Virus record (IMG/VR): IMGVR_UViG_3300047319_000748
Location: 1-34,539 of that record
Source: a virus
DNA length: 34,539 nucleotides
Direction: 5' to 3' (one strand)
Position numbers and translations under genes: made by a program. Below are positions 12,445 to 31,647 of this stretch, piece by piece; positions within the stretch are counted from its first letter, which is position 1; every line of letters begins with the position of its first letter. Under the pieces are notes generated by a model. That model ran no database searches and was not told the DNA's origin. It saw nothing but the letters and a program-made list of their open reading frames with translations.

Positions 12445-12857
12445 AGGCTCGCCCAGACACGGTAGAGGCCGCCGGCATGCTGCCAACGGAGCGACGAATC
12501 CACCGGGTCGGGCTCGATGTAGCGCACGTATTCGGTCCGCTCCATGTTCATAAACGTGTAGCCGGTAATCGCCAGCGTCTTACCATCGAGCAGCGCGTCG
12601 ATCCGCGCGGCCGCGGCCGATGATCCGGCGCTGCCGGTGCCCATCTCGACATACTTCACGCGGTAGACCACGTCCTCGTAGGACCGCGCGTTGAAGACGA
12701 GCTCATCGAACGCAATGACGACGCTGACGATGACGAATTTCTGCGCGTTCGGCACGGCGAAGTCGAAAAATATGCCGCCGGTCGCGATCGCCATCAGTGC
12801 GGCGTCGGACGCGAGCGCTGCGACCAGCGCGACGTCGATGTTCGCACTATCGCTCAT
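12441..12857 (-). CDS. Tail completion/terminator protein (DUF3168-like)
   Basis: 138 residues; ATG at 12857 overlaps the preceding gp10-like stop by four bases. The pattern (VALVAALASDAALMAIATGG at the start, then FVIVSVVIAF, ARSYEDVVYRVKYVEMG, AARIDALLDGKTLAITGYTF) matches small tail terminator or completion proteins of the DUF3168 type that follow HK97 gp10-like genes. The protein caps the tail tube for joining to the head. A clear second copy of this domain forms the C-terminus of the repeat protein at 22244-23908, with shared ARIDxLLDGxTL, YEDxVY, SLRW and GGLYRV elements. Confidence 0.83.
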   Translation of the reverse strand: MSDSANIDVALVAALASDAALMAIATGGIFFDFAVPNAQKFVIVSVVIAFDELVFNARSYEDVVYRVKYVEMGTGSAGSSAAAARIDALLDGKTLAITGYTFMNMERTEYVRYIEPDPVDSSLRWQHAGGLYRVWASL

Positions 12858-13264
12858 TCGGTGCCCCTGACCTGCAGACCGTTGTCGACGAGCATCTGCT
12901 TCAGCCGCTCATACATCGCGCGACGATTCCGGATGACCGGCGGCAGGAAGTAGTTGCCAGGCGTCGGCTTCGCGATCTGACCACGCGAGGCGCCGGACGC
13001 AATATGCCGGACGGCTGTGCCATGCTCGAAGATCTGCGCGAGCTTCGACGTATTCTTCGCCACGACCTTGACGCCGAACTTTCCAGCGCTGACGACGTCG
13101 ACGCGAAGACCTTGATTCAATTCGTCCTTTGTCCCGCCCGGATACTTGATCTGGCTCTTCGCCGTGTTCGCGGCGTCGAGGACGATGTGACCGGCCTGAT
13201 TCGTAAGATCCTCCGGCAATCTCCGCAATTCCTCTTGTAACTCATCAAGCCCGATCCATTTCAC
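12854..13264 (-). CDS. HK97 gp10-like neck/tail component
   Basis: 136 residues from a GTG at 13264 that overlaps the previous stop (GTGA). The sequence has the typical start of the family, helix-rich with LDELQEELRRLPEDL and a following ANTAKSQIKYPGG. It continues with VVAKNTSKLAQIFEHGTAVR and then the ending NYFLPPVIRNRRAMYERLKQ, close to HK97 gp10. It is one of the head-tail joining proteins placed between head closure and tail terminator. Gene order on both sides agrees. Confidence 0.87.
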   Translation of the reverse strand: MKWIGLDELQEELRRLPEDLTNQAGHIVLDAANTAKSQIKYPGGTKDELNQGLRVDVVSAGKFGVKVVAKNTSKLAQIFEHGTAVRHIASGASRGQIAKPTPGNYFLPPVIRNRRAMYERLKQMLVDNGLQVRGTE

Positions 13265-13626
13265 GACGTGACCTCCGTGATGGCCGCCACGGTCTCGACG
13301 CCTGCGCCTTCCGTGTCGTCGATGTCGATCACGTTGCCGACGTGAACGGCGCCGGCGTAGTCCGTCCACGTCGCGCGCGTGTTGATGTTCATCTCCGGAT
13401 TGAAGCGCCCGTTGAAGACGTGCGTCGCGTGCGCGATGATCGCCTGCGAGAAATGCTTCTCGGCGTTCGATAGCGTCACCTTCTGGATCGCGCAGCGCCA
13501 TGGCGAGTTCACCAGCGGCGCATAGACCTGCGTGAACCCACCATCGCCGTCCGGTGTCGGCGGCCCGCTCGGATTCGTGAGCGTGGCCGACTGTCGGAGG
13601 TTGCCGATAACGATGACGACGCTCAC
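13261..13626 (-). CDS. Head closure/head-tail adaptor protein
   Basis: 121 residues; a GTG at 13626 overlaps the connector stop (GTGA). It begins with beta-strand sequence (VVIVIGNLRQSATLTNPSG) and contains SPWRCAIQKVTLSNAEKHFS and ATHVFNGRFNPEMNINTRA, the pattern of SPP1 gp16/HK97 gp7-type adaptor proteins. The T-H-x-V-x-x-R-[FY] element is common in this family. It sits exactly between the connector and the gp10-like gene, so the role follows from both sequence and context. Confidence 0.82.
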   Translation of the reverse strand: MSVVIVIGNLRQSATLTNPSGPPTPDGDGGFTQVYAPLVNSPWRCAIQKVTLSNAEKHFSQAIIAHATHVFNGRFNPEMNINTRATWTDYAGAVHVGNVIDIDDTEGAGVETVAAITEVTS

Positions 13627-14378
13627 AGCACGATGCTCCCGCCGACCGCGATGGCGTAGGGCGATGCGTAGCCGTAATCGCGCAACACCTGCGCGGACGC
13701 CGCCGTTTTCTTGAACGCGTCCATCGTGACTTCGACGCCGTAGGGCAGTTCGATGACCTGGCCGCGGCGCGCCTCATGGACGGCCGAGCGGAACGTGTCG
13801 AAGTGCGCGACGAGCAGGCAGAGAATGCCACGCACGAGCGCCGGCACGGCGGCCGCTGTGTCGCCGTAGCCGCACTTGTAGCGGATCTTGACCGAGCCCG
13901 TCTGGTCACGCGCGATCGGCCACGTCTTCCCATAGAGCGGCTCGACGAAGCCAGGGACGGCGTAGTCGCCGGCCGGGATCACGGTCGTAAAGAGGTTCGT
14001 CGCCGGCGACCCGCCGTCATTGAAGTTGCGGAGCACGCCGGTCGAGTCCACGTACTGGACGCTCAAGACGGACTGGAGCGGCGGGTGCGGCAGTTCGATG
14101 CGTGCGCCGCGGCCCATCGCGCCGATGAACGGGAACCGGTCAAGCCAGAACTCTCGCGTCTGCGTCAGCGGAGATCGACTCGTCTGCTCGAAAAAATACG
14201 ACGTCGCGGCATCGATGAAGACGGAGATCTGCGCCGCGTCGAGCTGGCCGAGGGCCCTGACGTGCTGCTGGGCGTAACTCAGCGTGACGGCCTGGTTCAC
14301 TGGCGACCCGCCCTGCACGGTCGAGACGAAATTATCGATCGTCGTGATCTCTCGGCCGTAGCTGTGGATGCTAGACAT
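13623..14378 (-). CDS. Head-tail connector protein (gp6-like)
   Basis: 251 residues from an ATG at 14378, which overlaps the end of the upstream glycosyltransferase by eight bases. Features are LDAAQISVFIDAATSYFFEQ (helical N-terminal part), then the typical FWLDRFPF, ELPHPPLQSVLSVQYVDSTG and the end GSVKIRYKCGYGDTAAAVPA. The last is the hallmark of gp6-like connectors, in which I(R)Y-x-x-GYGD precedes the C-terminal helix that contacts the portal. It starts the neck module, 13.6 kb away from the portal. Confidence 0.87.
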   Translation of the reverse strand: MSSIHSYGREITTIDNFVSTVQGGSPVNQAVTLSYAQQHVRALGQLDAAQISVFIDAATSYFFEQTSRSPLTQTREFWLDRFPFIGAMGRGARIELPHPPLQSVLSVQYVDSTGVLRNFNDGGSPATNLFTTVIPAGDYAVPGFVEPLYGKTWPIARDQTGSVKIRYKCGYGDTAAAVPALVRGILCLLVAHFDTFRSAVHEARRGQVIELPYGVEVTMDAFKKTAASAQVLRDYGYASPYAIAVGGSIVL

Positions 14379-14904
14379 GTGGTTGACCGATCTCGACGAG
14401 CACCTCGTCACGCCAGGCGATCTCGTCCGGCGTCCAGCCCATCGTCTGAAGGAAGTGGAGGTCGCCACAGTCGCGCTGCTCGCCCCACTGCCCCATCTTT
14501 GCCGGGTTGTTCGGCGTGAAGAACATCGGCGTCCCGACGTTGCCCCACCGGATCTCGCGTTCCTTCCAGAGCAGCCCGCCATTCGGCAACCGCATCCTGA
14601 ACATCGACACGCCGGTTGGGTTGGCAATGATGGCCGACGCGAGCAGCATGCGCGCGCCGGGCGCGTACGTGTCGTCGTCGTCGATGTGCGCGAGATACTT
14701 ACCGCGCGCCAGCGGCGTCGCGATGTTGCGCTCGGTGCTGCCCCAATCGTGGCCGGGTTCGCAGGAGACGCAGCGGACGTGGCCGACCGCTCGCGTCTGG
14801 ACGTTGCCGACGACGATGATCTCGTCGCCGGGCCAGCACTCAATAGACGCGAGCGTCGCCTTGAGCGACGGCCGGTTGACAGTCGCGACGATGTAGGAAA
14901 TCAC
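14371..14904 (-). CDS. Family 2-type glycosyltransferase, short form
   Basis: 177 residues from a GTG at 14904 (GTGA overlap with the previous gene, AGGAG nearby). The start MISYIVATVNRPSLKATLAS and GDEIIVVGN match the nucleotide-binding part of the GT-A fold. The metal-binding acidic motif is AHIDDDDTY, preceded by STERNIATPLARGKYLAHI. The C-terminal part is short (GTPMFFTPNNPAKMGQWGEQ) and near the lower size limit for the family. This enzyme should transfer a sugar from a nucleotide donor. It is the last sugar gene before the connector, and the eight-base overlap with the connector argues for late co-expression with the virion genes. Confidence 0.82.
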   Translation of the reverse strand: MISYIVATVNRPSLKATLASIECWPGDEIIVVGNVQTRAVGHVRCVSCEPGHDWGSTERNIATPLARGKYLAHIDDDDTYAPGARMLLASAIIANPTGVSMFRMRLPNGGLLWKEREIRWGNVGTPMFFTPNNPAKMGQWGEQRDCGDLHFLQTMGWTPDEIAWRDEVLVEIGQPHV

Positions 14905-15569
14905 GCCGCGCTCCTGAGCTTCGCGACCGCGTCGGCGACGGCTGACGCGTGCGTGCCGTTCCAGTAGTCCGGGTCGCGCCGATAGATGTCGTTCTGGTTC
15001 CCCTCGTTGAACGTCTGGTCTGGCGCGAAGCCGATCCAGTCGTGCGCGATCTCGACGTGCGTCAGGATCTCCGACCGACCGAAGACGGCCATCACGTCCC
15101 GCAGGAAGACGTCGCCCCACGCAATGCCTGGATGCCAGAAGTAGCCCATGCGATCGGCAGCCGCCTTCGAGATGGCCGCGAATGGGTAATGGCTCTCGTT
15201 GTGCGTCCGCGTGCCGAAGCAGAACAGGCCGTCGCCGAACTTGTTGGCGGCATCGAGGATCAGCTCGTCCCAACCGAGCGTCTTGAAAATCATGTCGTCG
15301 TTCCCACACATGAGCACGTCGCCGAGCGCGGCGGCGTAGAGCTCGTTGAAAAACGTCGCCATGCTCGCGTAGCCGCCGAGGCGCTTGCCGACGACGGCAC
15401 GACACCCGAACGCCTCCAGCACCGGCGGCGTCAGGACGTCGTCGTCGTCGATGCGGAACACCAGCTCGGACGCCGCGCCGCTAGCAGTCGCCTCGTACGA
15501 CTCAATCATTGTCGCGAGGCGCGTCGGGCGCCGGCGCGTCGGCACCAGCACGGATATTTTTGTGAACAC
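14901..15569 (-). CDS. Family 2-type glycosyltransferase
   Basis: 222 residues. The GTG at 15569 has AAAGGAG seven or so bases upstream, a good ribosome site, so I accept a 68-base overlap with the zinc-ribbon gene. The N-terminus ISVLVPTRRRPTRLATMIES is the usual GT-A beginning, and FRIDDDDVL is the acidic donor-site motif near residue 40. CGNDDMIFKTLGWDELIL follows at about 88. It then has SHYPFAAISKAAADRMGYFW and a GDVFLRDVM element. Substrate unknown. It overlaps the next gene by four bases. Confidence 0.82.
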   Translation of the reverse strand: MFTKISVLVPTRRRPTRLATMIESYEATASGAASELVFRIDDDDVLTPPVLEAFGCRAVVGKRLGGYASMATFFNELYAAALGDVLMCGNDDMIFKTLGWDELILDAANKFGDGLFCFGTRTHNESHYPFAAISKAAADRMGYFWHPGIAWGDVFLRDVMAVFGRSEILTHVEIAHDWIGFAPDQTFNEGNQNDIYRRDPDYWNGTHASAVADAVAKLRSAA

Positions 15570-15738
15570 GCGGCTCCTTTAGCTTTAGGATCTCGCTCGG
15601 CGGCGTCGCGGCAGCCTCGACCGCCACGGTCGCGGTCGCAGCCACGTGACGGCAGTCGGGGCACTGATGCTGGCCGCCGCCGAGCGATTCCATCTCAACG
15701 TCCTTCCCGATCGTCTCAGAGCATTGCTCGCACTTCAT
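15502..15738 (-). CDS. Small zinc-ribbon protein
   Basis: 78 residues, ATG at 15738 with TAGGGAG upstream. The N-terminus has two Cys pairs, MKCEQC (residues 3 and 6) and QCPDC (26 and 29), consistent with one zinc site. The C-terminal 45 residues are Ala/Pro-rich and probably disordered, and the last 22 codons overlap the next gene in another frame. No function can be given; such proteins are common in phage operons. It lies in the sugar island between the membrane peptide and a glycosyltransferase. Confidence 0.7.
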   Translation of the reverse strand: MKCEQCSETIGKDVEMESLGGGQHQCPDCRHVAATATVAVEAAATPPSEILKLKEPRVHKNIRAGADAPAPDAPRDND

Positions 15739-15751
15739 GTTTTTCCACTCC

Positions 15752-15862
15752 CTACCGAAGGAGGCGAGCCACGATCACCGCAGCCAGTGACCAGCCGACT
15801 CCGGTGAAGAAGCCGACGCAGAACCATGCGCCGATCTGATAGAACGTCACGGTGCTAGGCAT
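15752..15862 (-). CDS. 36-residue single-pass membrane peptide
   Basis: The ATG at 15862 is preceded by TTGAGGAG at a good spacing, one of the clearest ribosome sites in the window. The frame encodes 36 residues, MPSTVTFYQIGAWFCVGFFT at the start and ending in a positively charged ARLLR, then TAG at 15754-15752. About 20 central residues are hydrophobic (GAWFCVGFFTGVGWSLAAVI), one membrane span with an inside-positive C-terminus. It sits between the radical SAM gene and the zinc-ribbon gene. Function unknown; it might anchor a glycosyltransferase complex or be a small toxin- or holin-like peptide. Confidence 0.68.
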   Translation of the reverse strand: MPSTVTFYQIGAWFCVGFFTGVGWSLAAVIVARLLR

Positions 15863-15881
15863 ATGTACTCCTCAACGAAAA

Positions 15882-17480
15882 TCAGTGACCGGCGTAGCTG
15901 AGGCCGCTCGCAGCCGTCAGGACGCCGTGGGCTTCTGCTTCTTCCTGCTGCTTCCTGATGCGAACGTCTTCGTCCCACTCGGCCTTCGCCCACCCTTCCG
16001 AGACGAGGAAGTCGAACATCTCGCGCTTGATCTGGAACATCTCCTCGACCGTCGCGCCGTGCGGCCGGACGAGGATCTCGTCTCGCGCCGAGAACCCGAC
16101 GATCCACTGGTTGTCGTAGTTGTAGTCGACGATGTCGAGACCGCTCTCCTGCGGATGCGTCCACCAGCGGCTCCCCGGATACGGGATGCCAACGGCGAGA
16201 TTGCAGGAGTCCAGATACGGCTTGACGGTCTTGAGCCACGCCATCGTCTCGCGCGCCGTCTCGAGCGTCTCGCCGGCGAGCCCAGCGACGAGGAACGCGA
16301 TCGTGTAGAAGCCGTGACTCTTCGCCGTCATCAGCGCACGCGTGTTCTGCTCGACGGTCGTGCCCTTCTGGTTCGCGTCGAGCACACGCTGGCTGCCGGA
16401 TTCGATACCGAAGCACGTCACCTTGCAGTTCATCCGCTTCAGCGACTCGGCGACGTGATCGTCCATCGTGTTCACGCGAGTGTGAATACGCGCGGCAAAC
16501 GATCCGGGCCCGAGGTCGGCATGGATGGCTTCCGAGAGTTCGCGGAGCTTCGTGCGATGCAGCGTGTAGGTGTCGTCCTGGAACTTGAACATCCGGACGC
16601 CCTTGTCCATCACCGTCCGCATCTCGGCGATGATGTTCTGCGGCGAACGGTAGCGCGGCTTCTGGCCGATCCACGGCGTCGAGCAATAGGTGCATTTGTA
16701 CGGACAACCGCGCGTCCCGATGAGCGACATGACGGCGCCGCTCGCGTCCGGATGCGCGTCGTTGGGGAAATACCGCTTTTTCATCACCGCGACGCCGTCG
16801 TTGTAGATGTGATCGTGCGGCAGGAGATCCCAGGCCGGAAATGGGATCGCGTCGAGGTCCATCGCGTCGGCCTTGTCGCCGTAGTAGTACGGCTGGAGTT
16901 GCCCGGCGTCCCAGTCGCTCAGGAGTTGGAGCGTCGCGGCCTCGCCTTCCATCACGACGACCGAGTCAAAGAGCGCGCGACCGTCGGCAGCGCGGTAGTC
17001 GCGGCGCTCGCGCAGCACGCCCTTATAGTGGTACGCGTCCTGGCGCCCGGCCTCCTTCGTCTCGCGCGGCTCGTAGGACGGGTGCGGGCCGCCGGCGACG
17101 ACGAGCGCGTCCGGCGAGCGGTCCTTGATGTAGGCGGCGAGCTCGAGCGCCTCGCCGAACTGCGGCGTGCAGAAGCCGAACATATGGACGTCGGCGTCCA
17201 TAACCGACTCCGGAAGATGGATGTTCCCCTCGTAGCGCTTGTCGAGCATCGATGTGACTGCGACATCGTGGCCGTGCGCGCGGAGCAGGCCGGCGATGTA
17301 GAGCACGCCGAGCGGGATGTTTGTCTTCGAGTCGGCCAGCCACGGCGACGACGGCAGAACGAGATGAATCTTCCGGCGCGCGATCTCTCGGATCGGTAGA
17401 CCGGATGTGGGCGCGTCGCATGCGCTCCGATCGCTCATCTGGTAGCCTGACGCGGCCATCGACAGTGGCTTACCCATCAC
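15882..17480 (-). CDS. B12-binding-domain radical SAM protein
   Basis: 532 residues from a GTG at 17480 (GTGA overlap with the methyltransferase; an ATG follows at once). The first 140 residues look like the cobalamin-binding Rossmann domain: PLGVLYIAGLLRAHGHDVAV, then ALVVAGGPHPSYEP. I do not see a clear DxHxxG motif. The radical SAM core starts at TRGCPYKCTYCSTPW with the C-x3-C-x2-C cluster motif at Cys259, Cys263 and Cys266. FKFQDDTYT (298-306) and FGIESGSQRVLDAN (357-370) are typical of class B enzymes, which often methylate unreactive carbon or phosphorus. It ends with a helical domain. Substrate unknown; a sugar is plausible here. An SAM methyltransferase is directly upstream. Confidence 0.88.
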   Translation of the reverse strand: MMGKPLSMAASGYQMSDRSACDAPTSGLPIREIARRKIHLVLPSSPWLADSKTNIPLGVLYIAGLLRAHGHDVAVTSMLDKRYEGNIHLPESVMDADVHMFGFCTPQFGEALELAAYIKDRSPDALVVAGGPHPSYEPRETKEAGRQDAYHYKGVLRERRDYRAADGRALFDSVVVMEGEAATLQLLSDWDAGQLQPYYYGDKADAMDLDAIPFPAWDLLPHDHIYNDGVAVMKKRYFPNDAHPDASGAVMSLIGTRGCPYKCTYCSTPWIGQKPRYRSPQNIIAEMRTVMDKGVRMFKFQDDTYTLHRTKLRELSEAIHADLGPGSFAARIHTRVNTMDDHVAESLKRMNCKVTCFGIESGSQRVLDANQKGTTVEQNTRALMTAKSHGFYTIAFLVAGLAGETLETARETMAWLKTVKPYLDSCNLAVGIPYPGSRWWTHPQESGLDIVDYNYDNQWIVGFSARDEILVRPHGATVEEMFQIKREMFDFLVSEGWAKAEWDEDVRIRKQQEEAEAHGVLTAASGLSYAGH

Positions 17481-18193
17481 GCCGACCTTTTCCTGAGACA
17501 GATATTGACGAAGGAATACGTGTGAACGAAATTGCCTCTGTATTCTAAGTCGGTTCCTCCGACGAAGGTGGCCGGAATCATCGTCGGAATCGCGCGAACC
17601 AGGTCGGCCGTGTAGGCCGTGAACTGGAGGTGTCGCGATGGTGACGACTCGAAGTGCTGATCGGCATCTCGGAAGTAGTCAGACGTGACGAAGAGATAGC
17701 CGCCGGGTTTCGTGACGCGGCAGAGTTCAGAGAGCGCGCGGTCGTGATGAGCCGCGTCGACATGCTCGATCGTCGAGATGCACATTACGACGTCGAAGGC
17801 GTCGGATGCGAGCATCACCATGTCCTCGCACGGCACATCGTAGAGCGGAAGGGCGATGCCGTAGTGCGAGCGTTGCGAAGCAACGTCTCCGGTCACGTCG
17901 CCGTACTTCATCGAGTCGGTCAGCGAGACGTTACGCCAGCCGGCGACGGCCGCCAGATACGGCGGAAAGAACGAGCCGCCGCTACCGACATCGACGATCG
18001 ACGCGGTCTTCGGCACGGCGAGTTCTTCCAGCTGTTGGAGGATCGACGCGTATTCCCAGAGCCGGTGCTCGTGCCAGTCGCGATGACCAACGCCGCTGGC
18101 CCGCATGTCGCGCTCGAATGAGCGGAGCGGCTCGGCGTGCGGCAGAAACTCGTAGTCGCTCGGATCTAGCGAGCGCGTGTAGGGTCTCGTCAT
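17477..18193 (-). CDS. SAM-dependent methyltransferase (class I)
   Basis: 238 residues from an ATG at 18193, one base after the stop of the upstream glycosyltransferase. Motif I is SIVDVGSGGSFFP (65-77), an acidic residue follows in LTDS, then FDVVMCISTIEHV (133-145) and KPGGYLFVT (162-170). This is the class I methyltransferase layout (Methyltransf_11/Ubie-like). The N-terminal 60 residues (SLDPSDYEFLPHAEPLRSFE, RLWEYASILQQLEEL) resemble sugar-pathway methyltransferases found with glycosyltransferases. It is likely to methylate a sugar or a small precursor. It overlaps the B12 radical SAM gene by four bases, so the two are made together. Confidence 0.86.
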   Translation of the reverse strand: MTRPYTRSLDPSDYEFLPHAEPLRSFERDMRASGVGHRDWHEHRLWEYASILQQLEELAVPKTASIVDVGSGGSFFPPYLAAVAGWRNVSLTDSMKYGDVTGDVASQRSHYGIALPLYDVPCEDMVMLASDAFDVVMCISTIEHVDAAHHDRALSELCRVTKPGGYLFVTSDYFRDADQHFESSPSRHLQFTAYTADLVRAIPTMIPATFVGGTDLEYRGNFVHTYSFVNICLRKRSA

Positions 18194-18194
18194 C

Positions 18195-18947
18195 TTAGTA
18201 GGGCTTCGCGCCGTCGTGACGGCTCCACAGGTCTCGGACATCGACGCCCTCGGCCGCGAGTTGCCGGTGCGCCTCAGTAAGGTCTCGCTCGGCCGCATGC
18301 GCCGGGTGGAAGAACAGCGTCTCGCGAATGCGGATACATTCAGCGCCAGCCGCGTGGAGTTTGTACTGGAAGAGCGTCTGCGCATGGCCCCACGACGACA
18401 GCCGCTCGTTCAAGCCGCCGACGCGATCGAAGACGTCTCGACGCGCCATCCAGACGCCGGCGTCGATGCAGGTGTACTCGAAGTCGATGCCGCCGAGCAC
18501 GCCGGCGCCGGTCGTCCGCCAGCCCATCCCCTCACAGGCCGCAACATCGCAGTGCATGTGCCGGCCGTTGCTCGTCACGAAGCCACTCCAGCCGGCCGGT
18601 TGCGCGTCGACGATCGCCGCGAACTTCGCGACCGCCGAGAAGTCGAGCAGGTAGTCCGCACGCGTAAAGAAGACCCACGGCGTCGCGGCCTCCCGCACGG
18701 CCGCGTTCGTCGACCACGCATGCGTTCGGGACTGGTCGCCATGCTTAAACGAGCGGACGACGACCGGTACCGTGAAGTCCTGCTCGGCGACCATGCCGTC
18801 GATCGCGTCGCGCGGGTCGTCAGTCGCGTTATCGATGACGACGATGGCCGCGACGCGCGAGAAGTCCTGGCGCCGGATCGAGTAGAGCGCGGCGGACAGG
18901 TTCGCCAGCGTCAGGCTCCGGAAGTACGTCAGGCAGATAGTAATCAT
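18195..18947 (-). CDS. Family 2-type glycosyltransferase
   Basis: 250 residues from an ATG at 18947 (ATGA overlap with the previous gene). The start MITICLTYFRSLTLANLSAA, then AAIVVIDNATDD, is the GT-A nucleotide-binding region. The donor-site motif is FFTRADYLLDFS, a variant with RAD in place of the usual DxD. It continues with GWSGFVTSNGR and GGIDFEYTCIDAGVWMARRD, then LNERLSSWGHAQTLFQYKLH, typical of the acceptor part. Size is normal for the family. Sugar and acceptor are unknown. Confidence 0.83.
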   Translation of the reverse strand: MITICLTYFRSLTLANLSAALYSIRRQDFSRVAAIVVIDNATDDPRDAIDGMVAEQDFTVPVVVRSFKHGDQSRTHAWSTNAAVREAATPWVFFTRADYLLDFSAVAKFAAIVDAQPAGWSGFVTSNGRHMHCDVAACEGMGWRTTGAGVLGGIDFEYTCIDAGVWMARRDVFDRVGGLNERLSSWGHAQTLFQYKLHAAGAECIRIRETLFFHPAHAAERDLTEAHRQLAAEGVDVRDLWSRHDGAKPY

Positions 18948-19570
18948 CGGAGCGCCTCGACGAGCGGCGGATACGCCTCGAGCCGGAAGATGAACGTCGC
19001 GCGGTCGACATGCGCCCACCGGACGCCGCGCTCATAGACGAGCGCGCGGATCATCTCCCAGTCCCACGAGAAGACGCCGTTAAACGGCAGGCGATCATCA
19101 GTAAAGTGCTCGCGCAGCACCGAGCGCCGCCACAGCGGTTGACCGAGGTCGATGCCTGCGCCCATCGGCGGAGCCAGGCGGAGTTCTCGCGTCCCTGCGT
19201 AGAGGCACGAGCTGTAGACCATGCCCAGTCCGCGGTCGCTGTCGAGCGCGGCTACGAGCGGCTCGAAGTGGTCCGGCAGATACGCGTTGTCGTCGCTCAG
19301 GAAGCAGATGTATTCTCCGGTCGCGTAGCTCAGGCCGAGCGACGCCGGAGAGTTGCCCCAATCGTTCGTCCGAAACGGCATGCTGTAGAGTGCGACGTCG
19401 TTGTCGGCGCAGAGCGTCGCGATATCGACGAGCGCTTCGGACGGCGGATCGTCCGCGACGACGATGTGCTCAACGTTCGGCATGGTGAGCTTCTTCACGG
19501 ACGCCACGCAGCGACGCAGGCACACGACGCGATCGTAGACGGTCGTGATGATTGAGACCTTCGGCGTCAT
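18944..19570 (-). CDS. Family 2-type glycosyltransferase
   Basis: 208 residues from an ATG at 19570; an ATG at 19588 would add six residues. The N-terminus VSIITTVYDRVVCLRRCVAS and VEHIVVADDPPSEAL are typical GT-A elements. LSYATGEYICFLSDDNAYLP holds the acidic donor motif SDDN. The C-terminus has GVFSWDWEMIRALV, with an aromatic-acidic pair as in the catalytic base region. It is the first minus-strand gene after the plus-strand insertion and is divergent from it, so it must be reached by transcription across the insert or from an unseen promoter at about 19571-19660. Confidence 0.84.
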   Translation of the reverse strand: MTPKVSIITTVYDRVVCLRRCVASVKKLTMPNVEHIVVADDPPSEALVDIATLCADNDVALYSMPFRTNDWGNSPASLGLSYATGEYICFLSDDNAYLPDHFEPLVAALDSDRGLGMVYSSCLYAGTRELRLAPPMGAGIDLGQPLWRRSVLREHFTDDRLPFNGVFSWDWEMIRALVYERGVRWAHVDRATFIFRLEAYPPLVEALR

Positions 19571-19581
19571 ACCGACACCGC

Positions 19582-19608
19582 TTGACATTGGATACCCTGT
19601 GGTATACT
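19582..19608 (+). promoter_or_regulatory. Sigma-70-type promoter for the plus-strand two-gene unit
   Basis: TTGACA at 19582-19587 is a perfect -35 and TATACT at 19603-19608 a near-perfect -10, separated by 15 bases, which is shorter than the ideal 17. Only six bases (GCCCAA) separate the -10 from the ATG at 19615, so the transcript would start at or next to the start codon and be leaderless or nearly so. The site lies in AT-richer DNA and is the best promoter-like match that I noticed in the window. Confidence 0.68.
19592..19605 (+). promoter_or_regulatory. Inverted repeat overlapping the promoter, operator candidate
   Basis: ATACC-CTGT-GGTAT is a perfect five-base inverted repeat with a four-base centre, lying between the -35 and -10 and overlapping the -10. 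A ribbon-helix-helix protein is encoded two genes downstream (20012-20143), and such proteins often bind short inverted repeats at their own promoter. Autoregulation is inference. Confidence 0.45.
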
Positions 19609-19614
19609 GCCCAA

Positions 19615-20019
19615 ATGCCGACACATTTCTTGCTTGCGCTGGCAGACCAGACAAATGACTTGACAAATGCTGAATATGATTCGCTTGAAAAAGAAACGCG
19701 GAGTGCCCTTCTGTCTATTTTCGTTCCAGAATCCGATCTTGATTTCGATGCCGGATCGGCCAACAACAATTGGCCAGGAGATGACCGATACCTGTATTTG
19801 GGCACGCATCGTTGCGGCAACAGGAAGACGGGAGATGTCTCCCATCCATCCATAGAATTGGCGGCATATATAGCCGAAGGCGCAGACGACGACACTGGAC
19901 AAGATTATGTCGACTGGTGCTTTGTGACAGCCGCTTATGGCGGTGCGGACTGGTCGCCGATTATTTACTGCCCGTTTTGCGGAATGAATCTCAAAAAAAC
20001 AATTCATGCCGATGATTAA
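19615..20019 (+). CDS. Plus-strand hypothetical protein with C-terminal CxxC motif
   Basis: 134 residues from the ATG at 19615, just downstream of the promoter. The base composition is visibly richer in A and T than the flanking glycosyltransferase genes, and codons such as AAA, GAT, TTT and ATT are common. The sequence is acidic and polar (DQTNDLTNAEYDSLEKETRS, then DDDTGQDYVDWCFVTAAYGG) and ends in IIYCPFCGMNLKK, a CxxCG zinc-type knuckle. Other Cys and His residues upstream (GTHRCGN, residues about 62-68) could complete a zinc site. No family is recognised. The gene overlaps the next by eight bases. It is a typical moron-like insert in the opposite direction to all other genes. Confidence 0.75.
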   Translation: MPTHFLLALADQTNDLTNAEYDSLEKETRSALLSIFVPESDLDFDAGSANNNWPGDDRYLYLGTHRCGNRKTGDVSHPSIELAAYIAEGADDDTGQDYVDWCFVTAAYGGADWSPIIYCPFCGMNLKKTIHADD

Positions 20020-20143
20020 GCAGATGATCTCGTTTACCGATCCACAGAGAGTTTTTATCAAACGCGAAGCGAAACGACTCGGCATTTCTATCGCTGAATT
20101 CGTCCGTCGCATCATCGACGCGCATATTGAAACCCAAAAATAA
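20012..20143 (+). CDS. 43-residue ribbon-helix-helix (CopG-like) protein
   Basis: The ATG at 20012 overlaps the upstream stop region by eight bases; a second in-frame ATG lies at 20024. The frame ends at TAA 20141-20143. The protein MIKQMISFTDPQRVFIKREA followed by KRLGISIAEFVRRIIDAHIE shows the strand-helix-helix pattern of CopG/Arc-type DNA-binding proteins, with polar residues in the strand and G-I-S-I-A-E-F-V-R-R at the turn and second helix. It probably dimerises and binds DNA, perhaps the inverted repeat at 19592-19605. The stop is seven bases from the convergent stop of the glycosyltransferase. It is easily missed because of its size. Confidence 0.8.
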   Translation: MIKQMISFTDPQRVFIKREAKRLGISIAEFVRRIIDAHIETQK

Positions 20144-20150
20144 CGCAGCA

Positions 20151-21092
20151 TCACGTCGCCACCTCTACGGCCATCGTCTTCAAGACGGTCGAGAGACGCT
20201 GCGCATACGTGTCGCCCTTGAGTTGGTCGGCGCAGCGAGCGCGGACCAGCTCTGCGGCGTCTGGCTCGGCGAGCAGCGCGCGCACGATTTCGACGCACTC
20301 AGCGTCAGAGCGGAACATCGGCAGGCTCGGAATCCTTCTAGCGATCTCCTCGCGCCACTCGCTAACCACGAGCGCGCCGCAGGCCAGCGCCTCGTAGATA
20401 CGCGGGTTCATCGCGGTCGCCTGAACGCCGGCGGCGTTGTAATGGTGCTGCTCACGGAAGACATTCACGACGATCCGCGTCGATGCGTAGAGTTTCGCCG
20501 TCACGGCCGGCGGGACGTTGTCCGAGAGCGTCACGGCATTGATGGCCGGATCGCTCCAGTAGCCGCCGACGACGTAACTCAAGAGCTTCGCCTGGGCGAG
20601 CGCGCCGAGCACGCGTTCGCGTCGCGGATTCGCTCCGCCGACGAAGCCGACTGCGTGTACCTTCGGACCGTCGGCCGAGACGTGGACATACGGGTCGTAG
20701 CAGACCGGCAGATACGACGCGCGCGGGTGGCGGCCGAGTGTCGCCTTGTCGTTCACGAAGACGTGATCGAAATGGCGCGAGAACGTCGCCGTGTCGTCGA
20801 CCTCGTACGGCTCATCAAGTAGCCAGACGGCGGACCGGCAACCCATGCCGGCGCAGAAGCGCTGCGTGAACCGACGGCCATGCACGACGAGGAGCAGGTC
20901 CGGCCGAAAGGCGCTGATGCGCAGGTCGAGATCCTCAGCGTCCCACGCCGCATGCCTGTACGCGATGTCGAAATCCATCGCGGCGTTCTCGAGACCCTTT
21001 GTGAAGACGTCTCCACAGGAGAGGAACTGGTAGTCAACGCCAAAGACGCGGGGCGGCAGTTGGATGGCCGTGCCGACGGAGAACGTCGTCAT
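20151..21092 (-). CDS. CgeB-like glycosyltransferase (GT-B)
   Basis: 313 residues; the ATG at 21092 overlaps the DUF115-like stop (ATGA) and has GGAGG just upstream. The N-terminal half has FRPDLLLVVHGRRFTQRFCA and SAVWLLDEPYEVDD (87-100), in the place where CgeB proteins have W-x-x-D-x-P. The second half has VGFVGGANPRRERVLGALAQ and MNPRIYEALACGALVVSEW (228-246), the donor-binding signature of Glyco_trans_1_2. The other CgeB-like gene at 11257-12444 shares this signature but is longer. Likely transfers a sugar to a virion or envelope acceptor; substrate unknown. It ends convergently with the plus-strand unit. Confidence 0.84.
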   Translation of the reverse strand: MTTFSVGTAIQLPPRVFGVDYQFLSCGDVFTKGLENAAMDFDIAYRHAAWDAEDLDLRISAFRPDLLLVVHGRRFTQRFCAGMGCRSAVWLLDEPYEVDDTATFSRHFDHVFVNDKATLGRHPRASYLPVCYDPYVHVSADGPKVHAVGFVGGANPRRERVLGALAQAKLLSYVVGGYWSDPAINAVTLSDNVPPAVTAKLYASTRIVVNVFREQHHYNAAGVQATAMNPRIYEALACGALVVSEWREEIARRIPSLPMFRSDAECVEIVRALLAEPDAAELVRARCADQLKGDTYAQRLSTVLKTMAVEVAT

Positions 21093-21697
21093 GAGACCTC
21101 CACTGGAGCGCCGGGCGCGAGCGAGTCCAGCGCGTGCTCGAGCTCGACGACTGGGAACGCTGTCAGCGCCGTCCGTCGGGAGCAGTTCCACACCTCGACG
21201 CCGGCGAGCGCGAGCGGCTGCCGGAGCGTCTCGAACAGATCGCGCATCTCGGCATAGGGCGAATAGTCGCGGACCGTCGGCGGGTGCTCGCCGAACCAAT
21301 GCGATCGCCCGTCGGCGCTGAGGCTCATGTCGTAGCCGAGAAGCAGGATGCGCGTTGCGCCGAGATGCACGGCCAGGTTGATCGCCTGATAGCCGCCGTT
21401 CTTCCCAGCGCGCAGACCGGTCGGATCGGTCTCCAATCCGTCCGGGCCGGTATTGCGGAGCACCGTCACGCCCGGCCAATAGACGTCGATCGATGACTCA
21501 ATCGAGCACTTCAGGCCGGTGAAGTCCGGCGCGCCTCGGTGATACTCCCACCACTTGTAGTCAGCCGCGTAGAGCACGTCGGCCCACGGCGCGAGACGAT
21601 ACGCGTCATTGATGGCGATAACCGAGCAACGGCCGCGAAGCAGGTCGACATCGGCCTGCGTCAGGCTCGGGCCGCCGCCGATGCACGCGAACGTCAT
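21089..21697 (-). CDS. DUF115-like (MptE/Maf-related) protein
   Basis: 202 residues from an ATG at 21697, which shares one base with the collagen-like stop (TGATG). The start MTFACIGGGPSLTQADVDLL contains the GGGPSL loop of DUF115 proteins, followed by VIAINDAYRLAPWADVLYAA (positions 26-45). NGGYQAINLAVHLGATRILL and LLGYDMS (119-125) complete the family pattern. Relatives include archaeal MptE and flagellar glycosylation Maf proteins, and phage copies sit with glycosyltransferases. The likely role is sugar transfer or activation of a sugar or sugar-like substrate. It opens the sugar island directly after the collagen-like protein and is coupled to it. Confidence 0.82.
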   Translation of the reverse strand: MTFACIGGGPSLTQADVDLLRGRCSVIAINDAYRLAPWADVLYAADYKWWEYHRGAPDFTGLKCSIESSIDVYWPGVTVLRNTGPDGLETDPTGLRAGKNGGYQAINLAVHLGATRILLLGYDMSLSADGRSHWFGEHPPTVRDYSPYAEMRDLFETLRQPLALAGVEVWNCSRRTALTAFPVVELEHALDSLAPGAPVEVS

Positions 21698-22230
21698 CAC
21701 GATGAGAAGTTCCTTCCCGGCGTGCCGGTCTTGCCCTGCATGCCTGGGACGCCCTGCGGGCCCGGCTTGCCCTCGCGCCCGTCGCGGCCGGCCTTCACGG
21801 CGAGCGTCCACTTGGTCGCGCCCTCGCCAGGCCGCTCGTTCGTCGCGTCCCTCGCATACCACATCCCGCCGGCATGCGTAACGACGTCGCCCTTCGCGTA
21901 CGTGGTGGTCGGGTCGTAGACGCCGCGGTAGAGCGGCGCGCTCGCGAACTTGACCGCGCCGTCGATGACCGACCCGTCAGGACGGACGAGCCGATACGTC
22001 CGCTCGTCGACCTGCTCGAGCCGGGCGCCGTCAAGCGTCCCGTCGCGACCGGGAGCGCCGTCGGCTCCATCCTTCCCGGCAATGCCCTGCGGCCCGGCCG
22101 GGCCAGCCAGTAGGTCTGCGGTCTCCAGCGCCGCCAGGCGGTCGTCGATCGCCTGCTCCAGCGACTCGAGGTAGTCGCGGATGACCGGCGCGATGCCGTT
22201 GATAACCGCGACGAGATCAGACTTCAACAT
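21697..22230 (-). CDS. Collagen-like protein with carbohydrate-binding-like module
   Basis: 177 residues from an ATG at 22230 with GAGGGGAAG upstream. Residues 1-40 form an amphipathic helix (likely trimerisation), then Gly-X-Y repeats at 43-64 (GPAGPQGIAGKDGADGAPG). A middle domain at 65-145 contains YRGVYDPTTTYAKGDVVTHA followed by GGMWYA, as in CBM5/12 chitin-binding-like folds with exposed Trp. Gly-X-Y repeats return at 148-173. The protein likely forms a trimeric fibre or spike. The N-terminal layout parallels the collagen-like gene at 27502-27942. It overlaps the DUF115-like gene by one base, which suggests that the fibre could be an acceptor for glycosylation. Confidence 0.82.
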   Translation of the reverse strand: MLKSDLVAVINGIAPVIRDYLESLEQAIDDRLAALETADLLAGPAGPQGIAGKDGADGAPGRDGTLDGARLEQVDERTYRLVRPDGSVIDGAVKFASAPLYRGVYDPTTTYAKGDVVTHAGGMWYARDATNERPGEGATKWTLAVKAGRDGREGKPGPQGVPGMQGKTGTPGRNFSS

Positions 22231-22243
22231 CTGCTACTTCCCC

Positions 22244-23908
22244 TCAGAGGACGGAGACCTGCACGCGGTAAAGCCCGCCGCGCCGGAGCCACCGGAGCGA
22301 CGGATCGACCTCGTCCAGCGAAACCAATCGCGTCCGCTCTTCGCGCTGCATCGTCATCCATGTGTAGCCGGCGACAACGAGCGTCTGCCCGTCGAGCAGC
22401 ACGTCGATCCGCGCCGCGGCGGATGCGATGTCGCTGCCGACCTGCGCCGACTTCGGATCGAAGAGGATCAGCGCCTCGATGAGATAGACGCCGTCCTCGT
22501 ATGCGCGCGCGCCGAAGGCCGTGACGTCCTGCTCCGTCGCGAGATGGACGATTACGAACCGCTTCACATTTGGGGGCGCCCAGTCCAGCCAGACGCCGCC
22601 TGGACAGAGCGCCGAGAGCGTCGCATCGGCGGCGAGCGTCGCAATAATCGCGTTGCCGATCGCCGCCGAGCCGTGCGGCGACGGCGGGATGACCGACGCG
22701 AGCATCGGGACAATGCTCTGGAGTCGTTGGACCGGCGGCAGATCCGGCGGCTGCGAGGCAGCGTAAACATGCGCCGGCAACGGCAGCGCACGCACGGCCA
22801 GCGGGATCGACGGGACGTTCCAGGACGCGTTTTTCGGACCGGTCTGCGCATCCCAGGTGACCGTCCACGTCGCGACGATCTGCGTAATCTCGACGACGGA
22901 CAGCGGCGGCTGGGGCGTCGGTTGGCTCGCCGTCGGCCGCGTCGGAACGATGCTCCTGAGACGCTGAACCGGCTGAGGGTCAGGGAGCGCCGAAGCCGCA
23001 TAGACGTGCGCTGGGAACGGCGGCGACGGCACCGACGGCGGGATCGGGGGCACGTTCCACGCGGCGCTCTTCGACGCGGCTTGCGCGTCCCACGTGACGG
23101 CCCAGACCGAGACGAATTGCACCATCTCCGTGACGGAGAGCGGCCCTTGCGGCGTTGGCTGTATGCCCGTCGGCAACGTGAGCGGAGCGACCTTGACCGG
23201 TGCGTTGATCGGCCAAGGCAACAGTGGTCCGCTGTCCGCTGGCCACGCGGAGACAATCTGCGCGAGTTCGGTGACCGACAGCGGCGATTGCGGTTGGGGC
23301 TGACTGACCGCCAGGAAGTTCGGGACGACACTCAAGAACCGCTGGACCGGCAGCGGATCGGGCGTGACCGTGTAGAGCGGATCTCGCCGGAATGGGACGG
23401 ACGTAATGAGCGGCGGGACGTTCCAGGCCGCACTCTTCGGCGCCGACTGCGCATCGTTGCTCGATTGCCACGAGGAAACGAGCTGATTTAGTTCCGTCGC
23501 GCTGAGGAAGGCGCTCGGGATCGGCTGCTGTCCAGTCGGCAGCGTCAGCGGAGCAATCTGTTGCTGTCGATCGTTCGGGCGCGGAAGGATAGGACCGACG
23601 TCCGTCGGCGGCCAGGATGCGACGATCTGGCCCATCTCCGTCGCGGAGTAGAACGCCGTCGGCGGCGGCTGCGACCCATACTTGAGGGTCAGCGGCGCGA
23701 TCTTCTGTCGTTGATCGTTCGGCCGCTGGAGGCGCGGCTCAAGATCGGCCGGCCACGAGGCCAGCACGACCATCATCGTGACGGCGAGCGCGGCCGCGCG
23801 GCGCGGCGGCACGCTCGTCCCCTGCGCCGGGATCGGATCGTGCGGCGTCGGCGGCGTGCCGCTAGAACCGATGACCTGCGGGGGCGGCGGCGGTGACCAG
23901 AGACTCAT
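22244..23908 (-). CDS. Trp/Pro-repeat protein fused to a tail-completion-like domain
   Basis: 554 residues; ATG at 23908 abuts the previous stop (TAG then ATG). Residues 1-35 are Pro-rich. Residues 39-413 hold six tandem units in a short form of about 48 residues (SWPADLEPRLQRPNDQRQKI, then APLTL) and a long form of about 75-79 residues (WNVPPI, PAHVYAAS, VQRLRSIVP), in the order short, short, long, short, long, long. Most units start with a helix like LSVTELAQIVSAWP. Residues 415-554 are a copy of the tail completion protein at 12441-12857 (ARAYEDGVYLIEALILFD, AARIDVLLDGQTLVVAGYTW, DPSLRWLRRGGLYRV). I know no protein with this combination. It may be a neck fibre or extended tail adaptor. Confidence 0.85.
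   Translation of the reverse strand: MSLWSPPPPPQVIGSSGTPPTPHDPIPAQGTSVPPRRAAALAVTMMVVLASWPADLEPRLQRPNDQRQKIAPLTLKYGSQPPPTAFYSATEMGQIVASWPPTDVGPILPRPNDRQQQIAPLTLPTGQQPIPSAFLSATELNQLVSSWQSSNDAQSAPKSAAWNVPPLITSVPFRRDPLYTVTPDPLPVQRFLSVVPNFLAVSQPQPQSPLSVTELAQIVSAWPADSGPLLPWPINAPVKVAPLTLPTGIQPTPQGPLSVTEMVQFVSVWAVTWDAQAASKSAAWNVPPIPPSVPSPPFPAHVYAASALPDPQPVQRLRSIVPTRPTASQPTPQPPLSVVEITQIVATWTVTWDAQTGPKNASWNVPSIPLAVRALPLPAHVYAASQPPDLPPVQRLQSIVPMLASVIPPSPHGSAAIGNAIIATLAADATLSALCPGGVWLDWAPPNVKRFVIVHLATEQDVTAFGARAYEDGVYLIEALILFDPKSAQVGSDIASAAARIDVLLDGQTLVVAGYTWMTMQREERTRLVSLDEVDPSLRWLRRGGLYRVQVSVL
22670..23794 (-). repeat. Six tandem Trp/Pro repeat units, two size classes
   Basis: Units lie at about residues 39-86, 87-134, 135-208, 209-256, 257-334 and 335-413 of the host gene. 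Short units share SWP, LPRPND, APLTLPTG and QQPIP-type ends; long units share VTWDAQ, KSAAWNVPPI, HVYAAS and VQRLxSIVP. The repeated DNA is diverged, so the array is old or under selection. The mixed order suggests unequal exchange after a first pair formed. Confidence 0.75.
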
Positions 23909-24511
23909 CTAGTAGGCCCCCGCCGGTGCGAGCAGATACGCGGGCTGATAGGGCACCTGCGCCGCCGCGCCGGCGATGTCCCCTGTGGCATACCAGTCGT
24001 CCAGTTGCGGAGAGGTTCCGCCGCCGCCGACATTCAGAAAGATCCCGCCGGAGCCAGACGACACGCCGCTATCGGTCTGGTCGGTCCCAACTTGCGTGCC
24101 ATTGCGGAATAACTTGAACGTGGTCCCTGACACCTGCAACTCAAAGATGTCGCCATCCACGGCCGTTCCGCTGAAGGATGCTATCTCGGTTTGTGTGCCA
24201 GCAACCCACTTCCATAGACGAATCGTGGCGCTGGCCGGATACGACAAGATGTGATACCCGTTCAGACCGCTCGCATTGGAAAACCGCACGGCAGGGCCGC
24301 CCCAGCCAAACGAGGAATTCTGTACGGTCACAAACGTGACGCCGCAGGTTTGGGTGTCGGTAAAACTGACCGCGCTGTAAAACGCACTCCTACTACCGGC
24401 GCCATCGTTGGGCATCACGGCCACATTGCCGGAGACGAAGAGACCGGAGACCACATCGGTCCAATTCGCCCCGAGCGAGGCACCGTTCACATTGAAGTGG
24501 TCGTTGACCAT
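23909..24511 (-). CDS. Concanavalin/LamG-fold-like virion protein
   Basis: 200 residues; ATG at 24511 abuts the previous stop (TAA then ATG). The sequence is an all-beta pattern: FNVNGASLGANWTDVVSGLF at 6-25, then QTCGVTFVTVQNSSFGWGGP, GYHILSYPASATIRLWKWVA and FELQVSGTTFKLFRNGTQVG. The N-x-x-G-x-x-LGANW opening and RNGTQVG turn are typical of jelly-roll lectin-like domains of the LamG/ConA type, which are common in phage fibres and in bacterial surface proteins. Likely a sugar-binding virion protein. Specificity unknown. Confidence 0.76.
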   Translation of the reverse strand: MVNDHFNVNGASLGANWTDVVSGLFVSGNVAVMPNDGAGSRSAFYSAVSFTDTQTCGVTFVTVQNSSFGWGGPAVRFSNASGLNGYHILSYPASATIRLWKWVAGTQTEIASFSGTAVDGDIFELQVSGTTFKLFRNGTQVGTDQTDSGVSSGSGGIFLNVGGGGTSPQLDDWYATGDIAGAAAQVPYQPAYLLAPAGAY

Positions 24512-25510: not shown

Positions 25511-26008
25511 TTAGCCGATTTCCCGATACAGAACGCCGAACGACCAGCCCGTGAGCGTGCCTGGCGTCGAGGAGAACTGCTCGAAGAACGACGACGTGCC
25601 GCCCGGCATGAAGATCATCGTCTCAGGCGGCGTGGCGACCCACAGCCAGCCGTTGAGGACGTTGAAGTTGTCTGGGTAGACGCCGATCTCCGTGCCGGCG
25701 CCGTTCGCCGAGCTGTTGATACCGGCCTGCCCCGCCGCGCCCGTCGTGCCGCCCACCAAGTTCGCGGTCGGGTCGCCGAGCTTCGTCTTCGCCGGCGTGA
25801 CCGTGACGAGCGTCGGAAAGACCGTGATCTTCGTCCCAAGGCGGATGCCCTGCTGGGCTGAGGTAGCGTTCGCACGCTGCGAGGCCCAGCAGCGCAGGAC
25901 CTCAAAGCCAGGGATGCCCGCGCCGCCCGCGGACGGGTTGAGGTGGACGAGTTGCGGCGCGGCCACCACGGTGATGTTGTCTCCGGAAACACTATACTCA
26001 CGCGCCAT
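25511..26008 (-). CDS. Virion-like protein of unknown family
   Basis: 165 residues; the ATG at 26008 has AAAGGAG eight bases upstream, one of the best sites here, which suggests high expression. The protein is beta-rich with NITVVAAPQLVHLNPSAGGA, LRCWASQRANATSAQQGIRL, then VTVTPAKTKLGDPTANLVGG and a Trp/Phe-rich end. The pattern resembles a class of head or fibre surface proteins that I have seen in metagenomic phages, with a statement of sample mean-like domains around P-A-x-K-L. I cannot name the family. A strong ribosome site and the small size fit a head decoration protein, but that is inference. Confidence 0.72.
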   Translation of the reverse strand: MAREYSVSGDNITVVAAPQLVHLNPSAGGAGIPGFEVLRCWASQRANATSAQQGIRLGTKITVFPTLVTVTPAKTKLGDPTANLVGGTTGAAGQAGINSSANGAGTEIGVYPDNFNVLNGWLWVATPPETMIFMPGGTSSFFEQFSSTPGTLTGWSFGVLYREIG

Positions 26009-26059: not shown

Positions 26060-26371
26060 TCATCCGGTGATGATGATCCGCGACGGCGCCACAACGTCGG
26101 ACGCCGTCACGGGCTTCATGGCGCCAGTCTTGACAAACCGCTGCCCTGGCCGCTCGTAGTCGATCTCCTGCCCGGTGCGGATATCGATGTGCTTGAATCG
26201 CTCAACCTGTCCCGTGCCCTTGCACGCTGGACAGTCGATCACAAGGTCTTCTCCGGTGCGGCTATAACCGAGCCACATCTTACCGGGCTGCTTCTTGAAG
26301 TCGCTACACGCGATGCACGGCATCCAGCCGACCGGCACGGTCACAAACGGCACAACTTCGAGCGTCTTCAT
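26060..26371 (-). CDS. Small DnaJ-type zinc-knuckle protein
   Basis: 103 residues from an ATG at 26371. The sequence has CIAC (residues 19-22) and CPACKGTGQVERF (47 onward), the CxxCxGxG knuckle of DnaJ-like zinc centres, so the four Cys likely bind one zinc. The rest is short beta-rich sequence ending in VVAPSRIIITG. It may be a chaperone-like or scaffolding accessory of the neighbouring virion genes; no known homolog is recalled. 51 bases separate it from the next gene, with no feature seen. Confidence 0.68.
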   Translation of the reverse strand: MKTLEVVPFVTVPVGWMPCIACSDFKKQPGKMWLGYSRTGEDLVIDCPACKGTGQVERFKHIDIRTGQEIDYERPGQRFVKTGAMKPVTASDVVAPSRIIITG

Positions 26372-29631: not shown

Positions 29632-31647
29632 TTACGCCTTGTAGGCCGAGTTGTAGATGTAGCGCGCCGCGCCGGTGCGGCGGAGCTTCCAGTTGACCTC
29701 GCGCGTCGCCTTCAGGCCGACCAGCCCCGACTGCCAGAAGCTGACCAAACTTGCGCCCGTGCCGGTCACGCCGCTCTGCGAGGACGCGTCTACCATTTCC
29801 ACCGACGCCTGATCGCTCGCATCCACCGTAACCACGCCGTCGTCGGCCAGGTAGATGTCGCCAGCCTTGACCGCAACGATGATGTTCGAGATCGGCGACC
29901 CGATGTTGACCATCGCCGTCGTCGTGATGACCGGGATGCCCACGAGGAGCCCGCCCGCCATCGTCAGGCCGGGGAACAGCGGCACGCCGAGCGAGCTGAC
30001 CATCAGCGAGATGTTCAGCGCATCGATCGTGGACATGATCAGCACCATGTCATCGACCGAGAAGTTCAGCGTCGTGAACGTCGCGAGCAGCGTCGTCAGG
30101 TCCGTGCGTAACTGCGTCGACGTCGTGCCGGTCGTCAGAATAGGCGTCGTCTGGTTCGTGATCGACGCCGGCGAGACGTTGGCGACCGCGTTCTTCGACG
30201 GGTCGATGAGGTCCTTGTCCATCTTCGCTATGAGCGCGGCCGCGATGTCGTCGCGCACCTTGAGCTCAGCGTTCGGATTCGAGAACCGGATCTCCTCCTT
30301 CGTCAGGACCGCGAGCGCCGCGAGCTTCGACCAGGTGAGGGCGGTCGTGAAGCTGGTCGCCTTGCTCAGCAGCGCCGGCAAGCCTTCCCCAACCCAGCTC
30401 GCGGTGAGCCCGGCCGAGAAGCCCGTCACGCGCGTGTTGAACGGCACCTTCCGAAGCGACGGGATCTGAACGCCGGCGACGTTGGTCCCAAACTTCCCGA
30501 GGATCGTCTGCGGCCGCAGGAAGTTGATGAAGTCGTCCATGATGTTGTACGGGACGAGTTCCGACGCCCACCCGCTGACGGTCGTCGCGGCGCCGCCGAC
30601 CGCGGCGCGCTGCTGGAGCGCCTGCCGCTGGATCGGGTCCATCATCTGGTAGTCGATCATCTTGATCAACTCTGGCGCAGCGTCGCCGTAATTGCGCTTG
30701 GCGATCTCGCGCGCCTCGAACTCGTTGCCGCGGGCCATGCCCACACACATCGAGTATCTGGCGAACATCACACCTGGCTCGAGTTGCCGCGACGCAACCG
30801 AGACGTGCAACGGCTGCACGGGTCGCGCGGCGCGCGTGTCGGCCGCCGCTTCCGGCGTCGTGCCGTCGATCGGCCGCGCCGTCTGCTTCGCACGCTCTTC
30901 CGCCGCGCGGAGCCGCACGAGCTGCTTATCGATCTCCTTGACCTCGCCCTCGAGCTGGTCGTGCTCGTCCTGCTCCTCAGCCGCGAGTGTGACGCCCTCG
31001 TCGCTCGACTTGGCGAGCAACTCGTCCATCCGAGCGGCCTTCGCCTGGCGCTCGGCTTCCCAGGTCTTGATCTGTTCCGTAAAAGTTTTCTTCATGGTTG
31101 GTTTGGGACGGTCCGAGGCGCCGGACGTTTGACGAACGACGCGCGGGCGGCCGGGCGCGGCTGGGCCGACGTCGAGTGAACGAATCATCTGGATGGTGCA
31201 GTCGGCGTTCGCAGGGATCGTCACGGCGGACAATTCGACCCACGCCCAGCGGATGAACCTGAAGCCGCCAGTCACCTTGTCGTAGGTCTCCTCGAGCGAC
31301 CGGAAGCCGATCGACAGGCCGGTGACGAGCCCTTCGCGCATGCTCTGCCACGCCATGTCGAGGCGGTCCTTCAGCATCCCCGGCTCGGCGACCTTGGCGA
31401 TCTGCGCCTTGATCTCGATGCCGTCCTTGGTCGTCTTCGCGGCGATGACGTTGCCGATCGGCGAGCGTGAGTCGTGTTGCCAGAGGAGCGGGATGGGGAG
31501 CGTGTATTCGGCGCCGTCGGATTCGACGACGTCACCGTAGGAGTCGGTTGATGGCGTTGTCGCGATGCCGGTCAGGATGCGCTGCTCGGCGTCGACTGAT
31601 TTGATTTTGATGATGGAGTATGCGCGGCGCAGTTTTGGATCTGCCAT
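29632..31647 (-). CDS. Fused prohead protease and major capsid protein (HK97 fold)
   Basis: 671 residues in one frame. Residues 1-160 are the protease: LLWQHDSRSPIGNV places His58 as the catalytic His, and TGLSIGFRSLEE places Ser112 as the nucleophile (S78-like). A linker follows, then a charged coiled-coil delta/scaffold region (185-260: MKKTFTEQIKTWEAERQAKA and on). The capsid domain begins near 285 and includes VPYNIMDDFINFLRPQTILG, LTASWVGEGLPALLSKATSF and DDMVLIMSTIDALNISLMVS. An internal ATG at 31095 (Met185) has no ribosome site, so separate capsid synthesis is unlikely. Self-cleavage after assembly would release the capsid protein. The start lies in a small hairpin. Confidence 0.92.
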   Translation of the reverse strand: MADPKLRRAYSIIKIKSVDAEQRILTGIATTPSTDSYGDVVESDGAEYTLPIPLLWQHDSRSPIGNVIAAKTTKDGIEIKAQIAKVAEPGMLKDRLDMAWQSMREGLVTGLSIGFRSLEETYDKVTGGFRFIRWAWVELSAVTIPANADCTIQMIRSLDVGPAAPGRPRVVRQTSGASDRPKPTMKKTFTEQIKTWEAERQAKAARMDELLAKSSDEGVTLAAEEQDEHDQLEGEVKEIDKQLVRLRAAEERAKQTARPIDGTTPEAAADTRAARPVQPLHVSVASRQLEPGVMFARYSMCVGMARGNEFEAREIAKRNYGDAAPELIKMIDYQMMDPIQRQALQQRAAVGGAATTVSGWASELVPYNIMDDFINFLRPQTILGKFGTNVAGVQIPSLRKVPFNTRVTGFSAGLTASWVGEGLPALLSKATSFTTALTWSKLAALAVLTKEEIRFSNPNAELKVRDDIAAALIAKMDKDLIDPSKNAVANVSPASITNQTTPILTTGTTSTQLRTDLTTLLATFTTLNFSVDDMVLIMSTIDALNISLMVSSLGVPLFPGLTMAGGLLVGIPVITTTAMVNIGSPISNIIVAVKAGDIYLADDGVVTVDASDQASVEMVDASSQSGVTGTGASLVSFWQSGLVGLKATREVNWKLRRTGAARYIYNSAYKA

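Follow-up and report, generated by a model that had tools for sequence, protein, structure and literature searches.

The window, by which we mean the whole stretch of viral DNA analyzed here (34,539 nucleotides, positions 1 to 34,539 of the IMG/VR record IMGVR_UViG_3300047319_000748), encodes two proteins of the tail terminator type, one of which stands alone and the other of which forms the C-terminal part of a fusion with a long repetitive arm (Table 1). Both genes lie on the minus strand, and the plus-strand reading across the fusion gene is broken by stops.

Table 1. Coordinates of the fusion gene, its parts, and the genes discussed with it
Feature	Position in the window	Strand	Evidence or remark
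Fusion gene, 554 aa	22244..23908	-	single open frame without internal stop
Pro-rich leader, residues 1-41	23786..23908	-	kept in L030 and L003
Repeat array, residues 42-413 (three short and three long units)	22670..23785	-	
Domain with predicted tail terminator fold, residues 412-554	22247..22675	-	AlphaFold2 pLDDT 92.1; Foldseek top match 6tba_4A
Own standalone tail terminator, 138 aa	12441..12857	-	between the neck genes and the tail tube
Virion structural gene, neighbor	23909..24511	-	phrog_2804 virion structural protein, E 1.3e-8
Collagen-like gene directly downstream of the fusion	21697..22230	-	PF01391, 33.1 bits (cut-off 27.2)

The units of the repeat array are arranged head-to-tail, starting with two short units, then a long one, another short one and finally two long ones; the short units span residues 42-88, 89-136 and 212-258 (47, 48 and 47 aa, respectively) and the long ones residues 137-211, 259-337 and 338-413 (75, 79 and 76 aa). 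Pairs of units within the same class score 13.8-25.6 SD above shuffled sequences, compared with weak scores between the classes (-0.8 to 4.5 SD). The initial annotation had recognized six tandem units of two size classes, as found here, but had assigned to the array a length of 375 residues, which is corrected to 372 following a 41-residue leader. Altogether, proline accounts for 19.5% of residues 1-411, which also include 13 tryptophans (3.2%) and no cysteine; neither a Pfam family above the cut-off nor a relative in the PDB was detected for the arm in searches of the two databases. In the full-length structural model, where the alignment behind the arm is very shallow, most of the arm residues have pLDDT values below 50, and short helices are predicted, within this low-confidence part, near the start of units 2-6. 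The model fits a flexible, Pro-rich arm, and the designation of this region as a fibre, if taken to mean a rigid one, is not borne out.

Residues 414-553 of the fusion align with the standalone 138-aa protein at 46% identity and 63% similarity (blastp E 2e-35), in agreement with the match between the C-terminal 140 residues and the tail completion protein described in the initial annotation. The standalone protein belongs to PF11367 (Tail_completion_gp17; 27 bits, cut-off 24.5); the fused domain itself does not match this family at E 0.01, and 33 of its 45 aligned homologues do. An AlphaFold2 model built on these 45 homologues (pTM 0.87) was compared with solved structures using Foldseek; the best match is the tail terminator of the Rhodobacter gene transfer agent (RcGTA; TM 0.63/0.67), and the further matches are mostly caps, collars, terminators and necks, from monocin, Bxb1, pyocin R2, Mu, T5 and lambda. 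At the sequence level, a profile of the domain produced a single, weak match in the PDB (E 0.022), which again is the RcGTA terminator. We predict with confidence, on the strength of the model, that the fused domain adopts the tail terminator fold. Every one of the 20 columns that are invariant in the family alignment is kept, and, in a comparison of 56 conserved columns over a balanced set of sequences (as opposed to rows picked by likeness to the fused copy), the domain deviates at 7, inside the range of the standalone members; the standalone copy from the same genome deviates at 12. The preservation of residues typical of neck-type terminators suggests that the usual interfaces of the domain are still used.

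The same architecture is found in a sister phage that was assembled independently of the window and is represented by two 99.9% identical contigs from two metagenomes (L001 and L002), both of which carry the fusion with the same junction. The terminator domain of the sister phage is 98.6% identical to that in the window and evolves under strong purifying selection: 20 synonymous and 2 non-synonymous differences separate the window from L001 (dN/dS 0.031, from one genome pair), which argues firmly for the fused domain being in use. For the same pair, dN/dS is 0.108 for the standalone terminator, again indicative of purifying selection, and 0.275 for the last unit of the arm. Among 98 distinct homologous terminator sequences from IMG/VR, where the records are mostly fragments, the fusion and the presence of two terminator copies were seen only in this one lineage, with checks of whole records included. 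Such rarity would fit a non-functional relic or an assembly chimera, but the recurrence of the junction in two contigs from other metagenomes besides the window, together with the excess of synonymous differences across the domain, already contradicts this explanation, which we regard as highly improbable; a degenerate relic, in particular, is ruled out by the low dN/dS and the kept conserved residues. The fusion is real, conserved and unusual; it belongs to a known family, of which it is a variant in architecture. The initial annotation was aware of no such fusion, and we found no description of one in the literature searched, which does not prove absence.

In the sister phage, a GDSL-type hydrolase domain with the motifs GDSI, GAND and DGVH (PF00657 in L002, 30.6 bits, cut-off 23.6), a candidate carbohydrate-active domain, is inserted into the repeat array; neither this hydrolase nor any other enzyme domain was found by the Pfam search in the window copy. 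The presence of the hydrolase suggests that the arms present surface-acting domains. Searching other phages for the repeat recovered the arm in L001 and L002 as well as in two further contigs. The first of these, L030, comes from the same sample as L001, likely belongs to the same genome, and contains the N-terminal end of the arm gene, preceded by a gene that on visual inspection resembles LamG. The second, L003, derives from a more distant phage and encodes a 501-aa protein that is related to the arm and has no terminator domain, adjoining homologues of window genes 25511-26008 and 26060-26371. The N-terminal 85 residues of the fusion are 78% identical to L030 and 62% identical to L003. Scans of the collections with short peptide patterns detected the arm in none of the remaining viral contigs, species genomes or phage records, no relatives of the arm or terminator were confirmed in species genomes, and none of the fusion were found among the INPHARED phages. 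Weak matches to Erwinia sequences (E 9) were dismissed as chance.

Read leftward, the late genes comprise the terminase, a protease-capsid fusion, the portal, a decoration cassette of collagen-like, fibronectin-like and virion structural genes, the arm-terminator fusion and a second collagen-like gene; next come glycosyltransferase-like genes, a B12-binding radical SAM protein and candidate adaptor, stopper and gp10-like genes (the last three named by position, their family matches being weak or absent), followed by the standalone terminator, a glycosyltransferase, the tail tube and the tape measure. The stopper candidate occupies 13261-13626 and the tail tube gene 10956-11390. The standalone gene holds the usual place of a terminator, and the fusion does not: it sits in the virion-decoration cassette. 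Its ATG directly follows the stop codon of the upstream virion structural gene, and the same abutment is seen in L030. The two upstream genes (23909-24511 on the minus strand of the window and L030:6613-7836) have no detectable match to each other, and the products of both end in VPYQ immediately before the ATG of the arm gene; this slot looks exchangeable. The downstream collagen-like gene is kept in the sister phage (95% identity to L001).

Several other features of the late operon were observed. The head maturation protease and the major capsid protein share one fused frame of 671 aa (29632-31647, minus strand; phrog_617 and phrog_80). The glycosyltransferase-like cluster, with a methyltransferase-like gene and the B12-binding radical SAM protein, occupies 14371-21706 (minus strand) between the portal and the neck genes, one more glycosyltransferase lies between the terminator and the tail tube (11260-12444, minus strand), and related phages have parts of the cluster in common. 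The portal, capsid and adaptor genes resemble those of phages such as L009 and L047, and the genes from gp10-like through tape measure those of L050, L051, L066 and L099; a recombination border between the head and tail modules at about 12854-13626 (minus strand) is possible.

With regard to the origin of the second terminator, the proposed duplication of a neck protein by the phage finds no support in the phylogenetic analysis of a balanced sample. The tree comprised 100 rows, drawn from the surroundings of the fused copy as well as of the standalone one; in it, the fused domain falls in a 43-row clade of standalone terminators from other phages (support 98/93), and the standalone terminator of the same genome belongs to a separate 8-row clade (95/85), in which its close kin are L110 and L111 (100/98). 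The sisterhood of the two terminators is rejected in this sample (AU p=0.027) but not in a smaller one gathered only around the fused copy (AU p=0.20), so that the conclusion on origin leans on the sampling; the terminator alignment is short, and several branches, including those of both copies, are long. Many other phages possess terminators that resemble the fused domain more closely than does the standalone copy encoded in the same genome, with identity up to about 61%. An ancient duplication of the standalone terminator within the genome, followed by fusion and fast divergence, would account for the presence of both copies in one genome and for their long branches, and the smaller sample leaves the required sisterhood standing; against the separate supported clades, the rejection of sisterhood in the larger tree and the closer terminators of other phages, we consider it unlikely. 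The likeliest origin of the fused domain, judging from these sequence comparisons, is the capture of a terminator from another phage lineage. In an analysis of module congruence, the fused domain showed no significant correlation with the head genes, and the standalone terminator tracked only its gp10-like neighbor.

The leading reading of the function is that the fused protein is a neck appendage or an alternate terminator. Under the former, to which we assign an even chance, the protein would be a virion appendage of this soil phage, in which the captured terminator domain would anchor flexible arms, in some cases bearing enzymes, at the neck or upper part of the tail. The domain would form or join a terminator-like ring at the end of the tail nearest the head, the N-terminal Pro-rich repeats would project outward, and the arms, which could bear enzymes like the GDSL-type hydrolase of the sister phage, would help the particle to bind or cut surface polymers; the presence of the protein in the virion, its assembly into a ring, its location and the binding or cutting activity are all inferred. 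The position of the fusion among virion genes and the retention of the arm in L003 beside homologues of the same cassette favor an appendage; the distance from the usual terminator position and the absence of the hydrolase from the window copy speak against it.

Alternatively, the fused protein might replace the standalone terminator, or mix with it, in some or all virions, the arm being a by-product. Such a substitution would agree with the conserved residues kept by the fused domain and with the greater divergence of the standalone copy (12 vs 7 deviations), but appears unlikely given that the standalone gene remains in its usual place beside the tail-tube gene under purifying selection and that the arm itself is conserved and bears a hydrolase in the sister phage. 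Use of the terminator fold elsewhere, in capsid or tail-tube decoration or as an assembly factor with the arm as a spacer, would be in line with the gene lying past the portal among decoration genes, at a distance from those for neck and tail; it is at odds with the conservation of residues of neck-type terminators, and we deem it quite unlikely.

Returning to the appendage, we suggest more tentatively that one virion could contain two terminator rings of different phage origin, one ending the tail tube and the other docking six exchangeable enzyme-bearing whiskers, the terminator fold having been repurposed as an anchor. If the arm is indeed docked by the terminator domain, phages would be able to acquire appendages that act on surfaces by taking up a spare component of the neck, without evolving a new anchor. 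It would also follow that one phage can maintain two terminators of different origin, and their division of labor would be directly testable.

Compared to the tail terminator family (SPP1 gp17/PF11367, lambda gpU, RcGTA Rcc01690), the fused domain is alike in predicted fold, conserved residues and sequence homology to standalone members, whereas the fusion as a whole adds a 411-aa repeat arm, is encoded among decoration genes and occurs alongside a standard terminator from a different lineage. Domain gain by a terminator is exemplified by gp53 of phage phiCD508, in which an extra domain of similar fold yields a double-layered ring (PMC13324602); both proteins combine a terminator with an added domain, but in the present case it is a second terminator that carries the extra part, a repeat arm unrelated to it. 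Two different hexameric cap proteins occur in one particle of the Anabaena contractile injection system, namely Cis16A and Cis16B, which end the tube and the sheath, respectively, and neither of which is described there as having a repeat arm (PMC8894136). A parallel to the proposed role is provided by the neck passage structures of the lactococcal phages 936 and TP901-1, six neck appendages with carbohydrate-active parts; modules that bind carbohydrate are known from one report (PMC6669499) and a part resembling a glycoside hydrolase from another (PMC4493119). No homology to these proteins was found in the Pfam and PDB searches with the arm. The 936 model comprises a collar bearing helical fibres and binding modules; in the fusion described here, anchoring would fall to the terminator domain, and a Pro-rich repeat would form the arm. 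By analogy, the role of the fusion would resemble that of a neck whisker, with an architecture that appears to be new.
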